Part shown: positions 13,944-60,104 of the stretch, piece by piece | Position numbering within the stretch: the stretch's first letter is position 1 | How the letters are laid out: every line of letters begins with the position of its first letter | Assembly: GCA_030603805.1 (NCBI GenBank) | Contig: JAUVXD010000001.1 | Coordinates: 1-64,000 of the forward strand | DNA: 64,000 nucleotides | From: Acholeplasmataceae bacterium | Lineage (GTDB): Bacteria; Bacillota_I; Bacilli_A; Acholeplasmatales; Acholeplasmataceae | Direction: 5' to 3' | Made by a program: the position numbers and the translations under genes | The notes under the pieces: generated by a model | Databases searched by the model: none | What the model saw: the letters and a program-made list of their open reading frames with translations, nothing else | What the model was told of the DNA's origin: nothing

Positions 13944-14283
13944 TGGTGGAGATGAGGGGAGTTGAACCCCTGTGCAAGACACTTTGCAAAATACTTTCTA
14001 CATGTTTATTTCATTTATGATTTCATATATGAAACGAAATGAACAAATGTCTCATACACTAACCTATAGGGTTCTTTTATTGATATAGGTATTTCAATAA
14101 ATATAACTTACTAGAGTTGGGCCGCATGAGAACCGTAAGTAAATTCAAATTTGGCTCGCACCTTTTCTTAGGCAGCGAAAGATAAAGATTGGTTTCCGGT
14201 TATTATAACCTCGGCTTTTTTACTTGAGCAACCAAGACATGCTTATACGTTGATCCGTGCCGTGTCGAATCCAGAACATCCCC
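13944..14283 (-). ncRNA. ssrA: Transfer-messenger RNA (tmRNA)
   Basis: Minus-strand RNA of about 340 bases. The 5' end GGGGATGTTCTGGATTCGAC and the 3' end with GTTCAACTCCCC, CATCTCC and an encoded ACCA are characteristic. GGGGATG pairs with CATCTCC, leaving a G3-U pair, the alanyl-tRNA synthetase identity element. The tag frame at 14168-14215 (minus) reads AEVIITGNQSLSFAA then TAA, ending with the hydrophobic-Ala-Ala type degradation signal. Which codon is the resume codon (GCC or one of the preceding AAA codons) is uncertain. With SmpB it rescues stalled ribosomes. This RNA fills the largest gene-free stretch of the window (13833-14381). Confidence 0.95.
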
Positions 14284-28116: not shown

Positions 28117-28129
28117 TCAAAATTCAATC

Positions 28130-28318
28130 ATGCGAAGAGAAGGACACGCAAACATTGTGATGTAACAAGCGATTCAGGGGTGGTGTAAGCCTGAAAACCT
28201 CTCACAGAGAATGTATCACCTTCGAGCATAATATTAACGAAGTGCTAGATTTCAATCTAGAACTAAGGTGGTACCGCGGAAATTATTTTCGTCCTTAGAA
28301 TTAAGGGCGATTTTTATT
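28130..28318 (+). promoter_or_regulatory. T-box riboswitch (isoleucine) controlling ileS
   Basis: T-box sequence AAGGTGGTACCGCGG at 28264-28278 is canonical. Stem I is full length (about 28132-28225, GCGAAG pairing with CTTCG). The specifier loop has ATC at 28215-28217 followed by A, an isoleucine codon, agreeing with ileS. CGTCCTTA and TAAGGGCG (28290-28308) followed by ATTTTTATTT make the terminator, which competes with pairing to the T-box. Uncharged tRNA-Ile should let transcription continue. Confidence 0.95.
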
Positions 28319-48704: not shown

Positions 48705-48764
48705 AAAAACCTCTTTCTATATGATTTGAAATCTATCAAATCTTATGATATGATTAAGATGATC

Positions 48765-48842
48765 ACTACGGGGAGCCATGTGCTGAGAGGACGAAAGTCG
48801 ACCCGCGAACCTGATCTGGATCGTACCAGCGGAGGGATAGTT
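48765..48842 (+). promoter_or_regulatory. TPP riboswitch aptamer upstream of thiT
   Basis: ACTACGGGGAGCC, GCTGAGAGG, ACCCGCGAACCTGATCTGGAT, GTACCAGCG and GAGGGA appear in the order and spacing of the Thi-box. P3 is short. The downstream gene is a thiamine transporter, agreeing with the ligand. Confidence 0.97.
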
Positions 48843-48867
48843 TGATAATATATCATACACACTATCA

Positions 48868-55922: not shown

Positions 55923-56356
55923 GAATTGTATGCCAAAGAGTTAAAGAAGCAAGCGTAAAAGTTGATGAACAAGTTGTTGGACAAATCAAAAAAGGATATT
56001 TGCTTTATGTCGGCATTCATGTCGATGATCAGATCGATATCGTAAAAAAAATGGCTGAGAAAATTCACAATTTGCGTATTTTTGAGGATGACGAAGGTAA
56101 AATGAATTTGAATTTATCTCAGATTGGTGGAGATATTCTTGCCATTTCTCAGTTCACTTTGTATGGTGATACGAAAGGGAATAATCGTCCATCATTCATT
56201 TCAGCAGCTAGACCAGAACATGCAAATGCTTTATATGAACGTTTGATTTTAGAACTTTCAAAGCACCATCATGTTGAAAAGGGTGTCTTTGGTGCACATA
56301 TGGAAATTCATTCAATCAATGATGGACCTGTGACTATAATCGTTGAAATGAATTGA
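55919..56356 (+). CDS. dtd: D-aminoacyl-tRNA deacylase
   Basis: 145 residues. MRIVCQRVKEASVKV, ISQFTLYGDTKG and NDGPVTIIVE (the Gly-cis-Pro motif region) are diagnostic. It removes D-amino acids from tRNA. It is translationally coupled to rel through ATGA, a conserved pair in Firmicutes. The stop codon lies within the -35 box of the next operon's promoter. Confidence 0.96.
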   Translation: MRIVCQRVKEASVKVDEQVVGQIKKGYLLYVGIHVDDQIDIVKKMAEKIHNLRIFEDDEGKMNLNLSQIGGDILAISQFTLYGDTKGNNRPSFISAARPEHANALYERLILELSKHHHVEKGVFGAHMEIHSINDGPVTIIVEMN

Positions 56357-56381
56357 CAAAAATATCTTTTTAAGATATTAT
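56353..56381 (+). promoter_or_regulatory. Promoter of the T-box-GNAT-hisS-aspS operon
   Basis: TTGACA (56353-56358) overlaps the dtd stop; TATTAT (56376-56381) is 17 bases further on. It is one of the best promoters of the window. Confidence 0.85.
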
Positions 56382-56387
56382 GATACT

Positions 56388-56535
56388 GTAATTTAATCGT
56401 CTGTGAAAAAGGAAACCCTAGGGTTAGTGACACCTTTGGAGACATGTTAAGAATTGAGTGCTGAGATTTCCTCAGAACTAAGGTGGTACCGCGTATAATC
56501 ATACGTCCTTAGCGTTTTTAAGGACGTTTTTATTT
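56388..56535 (+). promoter_or_regulatory. Compact T-box riboswitch (Asp/His) of the hisS-aspS operon
   Basis: AAGGTGGTACCGCG at 56480-56493 is the T-box. Stem III (CTGAG/CTCAG) and the terminator ACGTCCTTA/TAAGGACGT with TTTTTATTT (56503-56535) are clear. Stem I is reduced: AAAGG and CCTTT enclose only about 20 bases, with a small AACC/GGTT hairpin. The loop reads GACACC, where GAC (Asp, 56429-56431) aligns with ATC of the ileS leader and CAC (His, 56431-56433) overlaps it. The leader is about 145 bases against 190 for ileS. Confidence 0.88.
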
Positions 56536-56556: not shown

Positions 56557-57135
56557 TTGAGAAAAGCTTATCAAAAGATGCCTGAAATAAGGCTGAGTCA
56601 GGTGAAGCTTAGAACAATTAAAAAGAAAGACTACTTAGATATGTTTGATTATGGGAAGCGAAAAGAAGTGGTCAAGTTTCTGAGTTGGGGACCTTTTGTT
56701 TTAGAAAAAGAAGCACTCTATTCCATTAAAAAAATCTTCTTACCAAGACTCAAACAAGGTCTACCTATTGGATATGCGATTATCGATTTAAAAACTGACA
56801 AAATGATAGGGACCATAGATTTTCATAGTAAACAAAAACATGAAAATGGTGCCGAAATTGGTTATGTGCTACATCCAGATTATTGGAATAGAGGCATAAT
56901 GTCTGAAGCACTCAATCAAATGATTGAGATTGGATTTAAGCATTTAAAGTATGATTTTATCAGAATTAGACATTTAAAAGAAAATGTTCAAAGTGGGAAG
57001 GTTATTGCTAAAACACCGTTTAGATATGTTAAAAGTGAACCCTTTGTTCTAGAAAAAAGTTACGAGATATTGAAAGATGAGATGCTCTATTATGAGCTTT
57101 CGAAGGAGAATTATGATGGCAATCAACAAAGTTAA
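56557..57135 (+). CDS. GNAT-family N-acetyltransferase (RimJ/RimL-like)
   Basis: 192 residues. IRLSQVKLRTIKKKDYLDMFDYG, GTIDFHSKQKHENGAEIGYVLHPDYWNRGIMSEALNQMIEIGF (acetyl-CoA motif with the R-G-x-x-S/A loop, here RGIMSEA) and a C-terminal strand pair. It acetylates an unknown amine or protein N-terminus. Start is TTG 56557, with GAGGTGG five bases before. It is the first gene after the T-box and overlaps hisS by 20 bases, so aminoacyl-tRNA status should control it. Confidence 0.8.
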   Translation: MRKAYQKMPEIRLSQVKLRTIKKKDYLDMFDYGKRKEVVKFLSWGPFVLEKEALYSIKKIFLPRLKQGLPIGYAIIDLKTDKMIGTIDFHSKQKHENGAEIGYVLHPDYWNRGIMSEALNQMIEIGFKHLKYDFIRIRHLKENVQSGKVIAKTPFRYVKSEPFVLEKSYEILKDEMLYYELSKENYDGNQQS

Positions 57136-58387
57136 AGGAACCTATGATGTACTACCTACAGAGTCTTATTTATGGAAAGCACTAGAAGATAAGATTAGAT
57201 CAACACTTAAAGTTTATAATATTAAAGAAATTCGCACACCAATTATGGAGTATAGCGAGGTTTTTCATCGTCAAAGCGAACTTTCTGATATGGTAACAAA
57301 AGAAACATATGATTTTGATGACCGTGGCGATAGAAAATTAACCTTAAGACCAGAAGGCACTGCAGGTGTCATCAGAGCTTATGTCGAAAATAAACTTTAT
57401 GCAACCCAAGAACTTGAAAAGGTTTATTATATTGGACCAAATTTTAGATATGAACGTCCACAAAAAGGCAGATATCGTCAGTTTTATCAATTTGGAGTCG
57501 AAGCCATTGGCGCTGTTGATCCTGCACTTGATGCAGAAATGATTATTTTAGCCTACGACTTTATTAAACGATTGGGCCTAAAAGGTGTTCGAGTCAGAAT
57601 TAATTCACTCGGTGATGATGAGTCGAGAAAGTTTTACCAACAAGCCTTAATTGACCACTTTACACCTCACGAATCAACACTTTGTGAAGATTGTAAAGCA
57701 AGACTCTCTAAGAATCCACTGAGAATCCTTGATTGCAAAGTTGATCAAAAACATCCAGCGATTAAAGAAGCGCCAATTCCACAAGATTTTTTAAACGAGT
57801 TTTCTAAAACCTATTTTCAAGAAGTGCTTGAACACTTAAACGCATCAAAGATAGATTATGAGATTGCACACAAACTAGTTAGAGGTTTAGATTATTATAG
57901 TCACACTGTCTTTGAAATTGAGGCTGATATCGAAGGTTTTGGTGCTCAAAACGTTTTAGGTGGTGGCGGTAGATACCAAAAGTTGGTCTCTGAACTTGGT
58001 GGACCTGATTTAGGTGGTATTGGATTTGCATGCGGTATGGAAAGACTCCTTTTAGCACTTGAAGCTGAAAATGTCCAATTGGCTAAGGATACCGATTTAG
58101 ATGCATTTGTCATTGCTTTTGGTAACGAAGTCAAAACAACAGCAACTAAAATTTTATATGAACTCAGAAAAGCTGATATTATTGCTGATATGAATTATAC
58201 ACAAAAAGCATTTAAAGGACAACTCAAACAAGCCTTAAGATTGAATGCAAAATTTTTAATCATTTTAGGTGAAGAAGAGTTTAAACGCGGTGTTGTTGGT
58301 ATTAAAAATACCAAAACTGAAGTACAAGAAGAGGTACTGATTTCAAAGATTAAGAAGTATTTACTTGAAAAACTGGAGAAGAAATAA
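57116..58387 (+). CDS. hisS: Histidyl-tRNA synthetase
   Basis: 423 residues, class II. KGTYDVLPTE, PEGTAGVIRAYVEN (motif 2 region RPEGT), GPNFRYERPQKGRYRQFYQFGVE, LVRGLDYYSHTVFE (histidine A motif) and GGGGRYQKL are diagnostic. A C-terminal anticodon-binding domain of about 100 residues follows. AAGGAG at 57103-57108 serves ATG 57116, seven bases away; ATG 57113 is the alternative. It lies inside the T-box operon. Confidence 0.96.
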   Translation: MAINKVKGTYDVLPTESYLWKALEDKIRSTLKVYNIKEIRTPIMEYSEVFHRQSELSDMVTKETYDFDDRGDRKLTLRPEGTAGVIRAYVENKLYATQELEKVYYIGPNFRYERPQKGRYRQFYQFGVEAIGAVDPALDAEMIILAYDFIKRLGLKGVRVRINSLGDDESRKFYQQALIDHFTPHESTLCEDCKARLSKNPLRILDCKVDQKHPAIKEAPIPQDFLNEFSKTYFQEVLEHLNASKIDYEIAHKLVRGLDYYSHTVFEIEADIEGFGAQNVLGGGGRYQKLVSELGGPDLGGIGFACGMERLLLALEAENVQLAKDTDLDAFVIAFGNEVKTTATKILYELRKADIIADMNYTQKAFKGQLKQALRLNAKFLIILGEEEFKRGVVGIKNTKTEVQEEVLISKIKKYLLEKLEKK

Positions 58388-58388
58388 C

Positions 58389-60104
58389 ATGAAATACACA
58401 CACAACAACAATGAGTTAAACCATAAACATATTGGACAAACCGTTTATTTGAAAGGATGGGCAGCTAAGGTCAGAAACTTAGGTGGACTGATCTTTATCG
58501 ACCTTAGAGACCGCTTTGGGATCACACAACTCGTGATACTGCCATCCAATAAAAACTATGACACTGCGCTTAAAATCAGAAATGAATATGTGATTGAAGC
58601 ACAAGGCAAAGTCATTGAAAGAGAAAGTAAGAATTTGAATATGTCAACTGGAGAAATTGAAGTTGAGGTGAGTGAACTGGTGATATTAAACACAGCAGAA
58701 ACACCTCCAATTTCGATTACAAATGATACGGATGCTTTAGAAGATACAAGACTTAAGTATCGTTATTTAGACCTAAGAAGACCTGTGATGCAGCAATTTA
58801 TGATGAAAAGACATCACATTACACAAGCCATTCGAAGTGTATTGGTTCAAGAAGGATTTTATGAATTAGAGACACCTATTTTGGGGAAATCAACACCTGA
58901 AGGTGCGAGAGACTTTTTAGTCCCTTCAAGACTATATCCGGGTCAATTTTATGCACTGCCTCAATCTCCACAAATTTATAAGCAACTCTTTATGGTTGCA
59001 GGTATGGAAAAGTATTTCCAAATTGCAAGATGTTTTAGAGACGAGGATTTAAGAGCAGATAGACAACTCGAGTTTACACAAATCGATATTGAAGCCTCTT
59101 TTGTTGATCAAAATGATGTGATGAGTACGGTTGAAAAAGTTTTGATTCATACGTTTAAAGAAGTCTTAAATGTGGATGTCACACCAAATTTCCCAAAAAT
59201 CACTTATCAAGAATCAATGGAAAAATATGGTAACGATAAACCTGATATGCGTTATGAAATGCTGATTCAAGATTATACAGATTTTTTCAAACGTCATGAG
59301 GTGCCATTATTTCAAGGAAAATCACAAGTTAGAGGCATTTTATGTGATCAAGCAGCGACATTAACACGTAAAAGACTAGATGCATTAACTGAACTCGTTA
59401 AGAAAAATCACGGTGAAGCACTTGCGTTTATTAAGAAACAAGAAGGCGTATATTCTGGAAGTATTGCGAAGTACCTTAAAGATGAATGTTTAGCAAAACT
59501 AAACATTCAAGAAGGACAGATGTTGTTCCTTGTTCCTGGTGAATTTGAAAAAGTGTCTTCTGGTCTATCAGCTTTACGTATTGAGCTTGCTCAAGAGTTT
59601 AAGATGATTCCAGAGAATACCTATAAGTTTGTTTGGGTCGTTGACTGGCCACTTCTTGAATACAGCGAAGAAGAAGGTAGATATTATGCTAAGCATCATC
59701 CATTTACAGCTCCTGTGGATCCAGAAGTACTTAAAAATGATCCAAAAAATGCAATGGCTAAAGCCTATGATATTGTCTTGAACGGTTATGAAATTGGTGG
59801 TGGATCGATTCGTATCCACAATCAAGAAGTTCAAAAGCTTATGTTTGATACACTAGGATTAAGCAAAGAAGATATTGAGACACGTTTTGGATTCTTTGTC
59901 GATGCACTTAAATATGGAACACCTCCACATGGAGGTTTAGCGCTTGGTCTTGACCGCGTCGTGATGCTTATGACCAATACAACTAATATTAAAGACGTTG
60001 TGGCTTTTCCAAAAACACAAAGTGCAAGAGACACCATGATGCAAGCTCCAAGTGCTGTCGATGATTTACAATTAAAAGAATTAGAAATCAAGGTAGGTAG
60101 ATAA
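58389..60104 (+). CDS. aspS: Aspartyl-tRNA synthetase
   Basis: 571 residues, bacterial type with the GAD insertion. N-terminal OB-fold (VYLKGWAAKVRNLGGLIFIDLRDRFG), RYLDLRRPVMQ (motif 1), ARCFRDEDLRADRQLEFTQID (motif 2), insertion domain at about 290-420, and LALGLDRVVMLM (motif 3). It starts one base after the hisS stop, with GGAGAAG upstream. The T-box specifier GAC agrees with its amino acid. Confidence 0.97.
   Translation: MKYTHNNNELNHKHIGQTVYLKGWAAKVRNLGGLIFIDLRDRFGITQLVILPSNKNYDTALKIRNEYVIEAQGKVIERESKNLNMSTGEIEVEVSELVILNTAETPPISITNDTDALEDTRLKYRYLDLRRPVMQQFMMKRHHITQAIRSVLVQEGFYELETPILGKSTPEGARDFLVPSRLYPGQFYALPQSPQIYKQLFMVAGMEKYFQIARCFRDEDLRADRQLEFTQIDIEASFVDQNDVMSTVEKVLIHTFKEVLNVDVTPNFPKITYQESMEKYGNDKPDMRYEMLIQDYTDFFKRHEVPLFQGKSQVRGILCDQAATLTRKRLDALTELVKKNHGEALAFIKKQEGVYSGSIAKYLKDECLAKLNIQEGQMLFLVPGEFEKVSSGLSALRIELAQEFKMIPENTYKFVWVVDWPLLEYSEEEGRYYAKHHPFTAPVDPEVLKNDPKNAMAKAYDIVLNGYEIGGGSIRIHNQEVQKLMFDTLGLSKEDIETRFGFFVDALKYGTPPHGGLALGLDRVVMLMTNTTNIKDVVAFPKTQSARDTMMQAPSAVDDLQLKELEIKVGR

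Follow-up and report, generated by a model that had tools for sequence, protein, structure and literature searches.

A predicted terminator-type T-box leader lacking the elbow-binding arm and Stem II upstream of hisS and aspS in Acholeplasmataceae

The hisS-aspS locus and its leader

The window analyzed here comprises 64,000 nucleotides (positions 1-64000 of contig 7) from the genome, 2.06 Mb in size and 99.9% complete, of a Peloplasma-like member of the Acholeplasmataceae. Peloplasma aerotolerans M4Ah (genome G005) is listed in the same genus. Judged from its sequence, the segment 56388-56533 is a terminator-type T-box with its own promoter, situated upstream of genes encoding a GNAT acetyltransferase, HisRS and AspRS. 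The features, all on the forward strand, are:

56353..56381 (+), promoter TTGACA-17-TATTAT; 11 of 12 consensus matches, same location in relatives
56399..56443 (+), short Stem I of about 45 nt; fold, RF00230 alignment and paired exchanges in relatives
56429..56431 (+), GAC specifier (Asp), followed by the unpaired A56432; kept in 75 of 76 hisS leaders
56431..56433 (+), overlapping CAC, the proposed His specifier, with C56433 paired to G56412; sequence and fold, kept in 65 of 76 leaders
56444..56455 (+), unpaired linker of about 12 bases where Stem II and Stem IIA/B would be; sequence and fold
56456..56477 (+), GAGUG purine string, Stem III (CUGAG/CUCAG) and AA; RF00230 alignment and fold
56478..56512 (+), antiterminator CUAAGG/CCUUAG with the T-box bulge UGGUACC (UGGU at 56484-56487); RF00230 alignment and constrained fold
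56503..56533 (+), intrinsic terminator, ten pairs and then a U-run; terminator search, one found with 0.0 expected
56557..57135 (+), GNAT acetyltransferase, first gene of the operon; PF13302, E 1.1e-23, position same in relatives
57077..58387 (+), hisS, histidyl-tRNA synthetase (ORF as listed; the matched protein starts near 57119); PF13393, E 5.8e-35
58389..60104 (+), aspS, aspartyl-tRNA synthetase; PF00152, E 3.4e-124

An earlier note on this DNA described an operon encoding HisRS and AspRS. Both genes are found, but they are preceded by the GNAT gene. In every locus that reaches far enough aspS is the next gene after hisS, with a gap of at most about 120 bases and usually of 41-66. The GNAT gene (PF13302) keeps its place between the T-box and hisS across the family; in genome G031 it is absent, and the T-box lies 68 nt from hisS. 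The same window also contains a tmRNA gene (13944-14283, -) and a TPP riboswitch (48759-48854, +), both above the Rfam gathering score.

Given the promoter, transcription is expected to start near 56388, about 11 nt 5' of Stem I. A normal Stem I hidden in the upstream sequence is ruled out by this promoter and by the same layout in relatives. Stem I consists of an outer helix GUCU/AGAC (56399-56402/56440-56443), a lower helix AAAGG/CCUUU (56408-56412/56433-56437) and an upper hairpin of four base pairs (56414-56417/56422-56425) closed by a CUAG loop. The segment UGA/GG is K-turn-like, and the UGA and GGAG elements are present and unpaired in the fold. On the 3' side of Stem I the specifier loop reads AGU-GAC-A, so that an Asp codon stands in the specifier loop of an operon containing aspS. 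Folding the leader to position 56500 without constraints returns precisely the three Stem I helices and Stem III.

The discriminator by which T-boxes are recognized, RRRNG-Stem III-AA together with an antiterminator carrying UGGN, is present. Positions 56456-56512 align to RF00230 with high posterior, and 56456-56477 match the RRRNG-Stem III-AA motif (PMC7778990, PMC7583486). The CCUUAG strand is common to the terminator at 56503-56527 and the antiterminator, making the two structures mutually exclusive.

A local scan with RF00230 aligns 56394-56513 (+) at 49.0 bits (E 5.2e-10). The gathering score, a search threshold and not a defining structure, is 93; the shortfall arises because most of Stem I and the whole of Stem II have to be treated as deletions from the model. 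Of the twelve T-boxes that RF00230 finds in the genome, that of hisS-aspS has the lowest score and the shortest alignment (120 nt; the others span 174-246). According to translated products and specifiers, the other 11 precede valS, metS, pheS, alaS, trpS, trpB, serS, asnS, tyrS, thrS, and ileS. Those of asnS, tyrS, thrS, and ileS likewise fall under the gathering score. The Rfam threshold will thus miss T-boxes of such reduced form.

The earlier note had recognized a minimal T-box whose shortened Stem I cannot make the distal elbow contact, and both the RF00230 match and the fold bear this out. It had noticed the shortening of Stem I only; the absence of Stem II and Stem IIA/B is an addition. 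Taken together, the anatomy shows that two modules are gone, the elbow-binding arm and the entire Stem II and IIA/B domain. The ileS T-box of the same window (28126-28299), which had been used as the full-length comparison, does have a long Stem I, but Stem II is absent there too.

Occurrence and history of the short form

A DNA search over relatives, a HisRS search and class-wide HisRS loci together gave 39 hisS-linked leaders; 23 are short and 16 have a recognizable pattern like that of the elbow-binding arm (IDTM). The short form occurs in 23 genomes, including those of Haploplasma modicum ATCC 29102 and Peloplasma aerotolerans as well as single-contig genomes. Because the 23 include a type strain and an isolate as well as single-contig genomes, an assembly artefact or a one-genome oddity is ruled out. 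Two leaders, in G016 (L091) and M50B101 (L110), have a longer Stem I arm with no recognizable IDTM and are possible intermediates between the long and the short form.

All 23 short leaders carry GUGAC. The sequence and length of their upper hairpin vary freely while pairing is kept; counting positions upward from the base and pooling the leaders, one finds each of the four Watson-Crick pairs at most basal positions. Paired exchanges are found in the outer and lower helices as well. The helix counts are rough, being partly from an automatic parse that misparsed the hairpins of G015, G022, and G033. In the other short forms the linker corresponding to 56444-56455 is A/U-rich and of similar length.

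The short architecture has a narrow distribution. A T-box pattern without Stem II and with a GNC-N-C specifier region is matched by 12 of 395 genomes of the class, 11 of them in Acholeplasmataceae. Sixty class loci upstream of hisS were searched and 49 motif matches, one of them spurious, were examined by eye; the sole short Stem I among these belongs to the Acholeplasmataceae genome G216. Nor is the short form general to the T-boxes of these genomes. In eight inventoried genomes (the source genome G000 and seven others with the short form) the clear short T-boxes all belong to hisS-aspS, and any other short matches are weak and near the noise.

When compared by eye across the surveyed class, hisS leaders of three types form a series: Stem I is long and accompanied by Stem II and IIA/B in the first, long but without Stem II in the second, and short and without Stem II in the third. 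The second type is found in three families (f1, f5, and f12), while the third is confined to part of f1. On the HisRS tree the distribution of long and short forms needs five changes by parsimony, two of which are forced by well-supported branches. The long leaders of G013, G008, G018, and G009 (support 97/95) and that of G026 are placed among short ones. The arm may have been lost repeatedly or regained by recombination, as both fit this distribution. Close relatives with long and short versions of one leader provide a natural side-by-side comparison for the contribution of the elbow contact.

The specifier codon and the predicted mechanism

GACAC is present at 56429-56433 as the earlier note described, and the same note proposed that the leader might sense two tRNAs by register shift. 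Under this proposal tRNA-Asp would read GAC and tRNA-His would read CAC two bases on, so that a shortage of either induces the operon. The idea is not new, as passages in two papers already credit Gutierrez-Preciado 2009 with GACAC in hisS-aspS T-boxes and with readings of it for one tRNA and for two. One gives GACAC as characteristic of hisS-aspS T-boxes and cites that work for a response mainly to tRNA-Asp (PMC5313534); the other cites it for sensing of both tRNAs (PMC4342826).

All but one of 76 hisS leaders retain GAC. The three letters starting at its last C are CAC in 65 leaders, CAA in eight, CGC in two, and CAU in one, and CAC is thus lost from 11 leaders in which hisS-aspS is retained. 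Short T-boxes without CAC are those of G216 (GACAAC) and G035 (GACGCC). The comparison of GACAC across hisS-aspS leaders that the earlier note had suggested thus upholds GAC, while some relatives keep GAC alone; the conservation of both codons expected of a two-codon T-box is not seen. Read from the tree and the genus codes, with no formal mapping, the separate losses would number at least six for CAC against one for GAC. A T-box of Clostridium acetobutylicum with two codons is comparable in that Saad reportedly proposed in 2013 that two tRNAs use its one specifier region. In the present leaders conservation and discriminator pairing favor a single tRNA.

At the variable base of UGGN, 54 of the 76 leaders have U, the other 22 have C, and none has G. 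Since tRNA-Asp has G73 and tRNA-His C73, these bases suit the former but not the latter, for which G would be the pairing partner. TBDB exempts His from the discriminator test, as C73 may pair within the tRNA. The TBDB rule looks for the specifier at a distance of 2-4 bases from the bulge end, with -1 and +1 as alternative frames. Applied here it points to GAC, whereas CAC would be frame +2, outside the frames -1, +0, and +1. The last C of CAC is engaged in the uppermost base pair of the lower helix in Stem I, and reading CAC would require this C-G pair to open. An overlapping CAC is also present without a histidine gene in three T-boxes of the same genome: AUC-AC (ileS), AAC-AC (asnS), and UCC-AC (serS).

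The dual reading is nevertheless in agreement with the presence of both synthetases in the operon of all relatives checked, and GACAC is kept in more leaders than the frequency of A-C after NNC specifiers elsewhere would give. That background, roughly 6 of 15 in other T-boxes, is a rough figure, since the automatic specifier parse misread serS (correctly UCC-AC) and a few distant loci. A secondary role for His, above all in other lineages, is therefore possible. One leader, that of G026 (L056 / L226), has a long Stem I and keeps CAC without GAC, having GGC in its place; it is the sole hisS-aspS leader of this kind. No tRNA-Asp was found among the 29 tRNA matches of this draft genome. A glycine reading of GGC is unlikely, as the tRNA-Gly of G026 has U73 against UGGU, and the leader may represent a switch to His or tolerance of a G-U pair in the middle of the codon. 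Taking the losses of CAC, the constant absence of G at UGGN, the paired last C and the equal overlap in T-boxes of other genes into account, we regard sensing of both tRNAs by this leader as unlikely. The overlapping CAC is best explained by a GAC specifier, the unpaired purine that usually comes next, and the base with which the lower helix begins; overlapping codons in specifier loops can then occur without a second tRNA.

The leader is probably a transcription-terminating T-box riboswitch that controls GNAT-hisS-aspS by reading uncharged tRNA-Asp, which is most likely the only tRNA sensed. GAC would pair with the GUC anticodon, and a putative K-turn at the base of Stem I would make the leader double back along the tRNA. 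G73-CCA, the 3' end of the uncharged tRNA, would then pair with UGGU, with U-G at position 73, stabilizing the antiterminator and allowing read-through into the operon. Charged tRNA-Asp would not be able to pair with UGGU, and the terminator would form. As there is neither an IDTM nor a Stem II S-turn, affinity would have to be provided solely by pairing of the specifier with the anticodon and of the bulge with the acceptor end, the two being linked by the putative K-turn. Against the reading of tRNA-Asp it may be held that UGGU offers G73 a U-G pair only, that CAC retention exceeds background, and that G026 has GGC for GAC. In the same genome U is found opposite the G73 of the cognate tRNAs in the serS and asnS T-boxes, and C is used by the two trp leaders.

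With two binding modules gone and a low RF00230 score, the leader might instead be a decaying T-box that has lost tRNA control and acts as a fixed attenuator or is nearly constitutive. For translational T-boxes, truncated Stem I's are reported to have hardly any affinity for tRNA unless Stem II is present (PMC7583486), which is in line with such decay. But GUGAC is invariant in the 23 short forms, and the helices, Stem III, the T-box bulge, and the terminator are kept across many genera with paired exchanges, making this explanation very improbable. Alternatively, a new contact could replace the lost modules, provided by the upper mini-hairpin, by the GU before GAC or by a protein partner. This would solve the affinity problem, and the GU preceding GAC is indeed invariant in all 23 short forms. 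No partner is known, though, and the free variation of the upper hairpin in length and loop sequence argues against a loop-specific contact; we find such compensation rather doubtful.

Place among T-box classes

The predicted tRNA-Asp sensor is ordinary in its family and operon but unusual in architecture. In current models the IDTM, the Stem II S-turn or the two together assist specifier-anticodon pairing, and T-boxes fall into four classes (PMC10482949); transcriptional T-boxes generally require the IDTM (PMC7583486), which the models connect with fast capture. In the hisS-aspS leader a hairpin of 4 bp stands in place of the distal arm, which sets it apart from Class I and Class II. A linker of 12 bases replaces the Stem II domain and IIA/B, and this separates it from Class III and Class IV. 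A terminator T-box with neither IDTM nor Stem II S-turn lies outside all four classes (PMC10482949).

The leader shares individual traits with several of them (PMC10482949). Like the Class II T-boxes of the Bacillus subtilis glyQS type it has a single-stranded linker for Stem II and a terminator, but in those Stem I is long and bears an IDTM, and they are described as glycine-specific, whereas the present leader has no IDTM and an Asp specifier. It resembles Class IV (Actinomyces odontolyticus ileS type) in having an intermediate Stem I without IDTM and the specifier in a side bulge between helices. Class IV, however, is described as like the Stem II-requiring Class III and as mostly translational, while here there is no Stem II and a terminator is found. 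With Class III (Nocardia farcinica ileS) it has in common a short Stem I without IDTM, but not the apical-loop specifier, the requirement for Stem II or the translational mode. The hisS-aspS T-boxes of Bacilli and Lactobacilli, as described in the passages mentioned above, are similar with respect to operon, GACAC in the specifier loop and transcription termination. The hisS leaders examined across the class have a long Stem I with the elbow-binding arm and many also have Stem II and IIA/B, whereas the leader in the window has neither.

No earlier report of a transcriptional T-box without both modules was found in literature searches, which did not cover the older T-box surveys. We propose, with moderate confidence, that the short leaders add a fifth architecture to those described for T-boxes: they would be functional tRNA-Asp sensors of the terminator type that have neither IDTM nor Stem II S-turn and work with a Stem I of about 45 nt and the discriminator. 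This architecture would have arisen in Acholeplasmataceae by serial loss, of Stem II first and then of the distal arm, possibly several times. If functional, it would mean that a conserved terminator-type T-box can work on the transcription time scale with the core alone.

The ileS (28126-28299) and tyrS (L009) T-boxes of the source genome combine a long Stem I with the absence of Stem II and IIA/B. Together with the hisS leaders of families f5 and f12 that have no Stem II, they indicate that this absence is not restricted to glycine, contrary to the class description.
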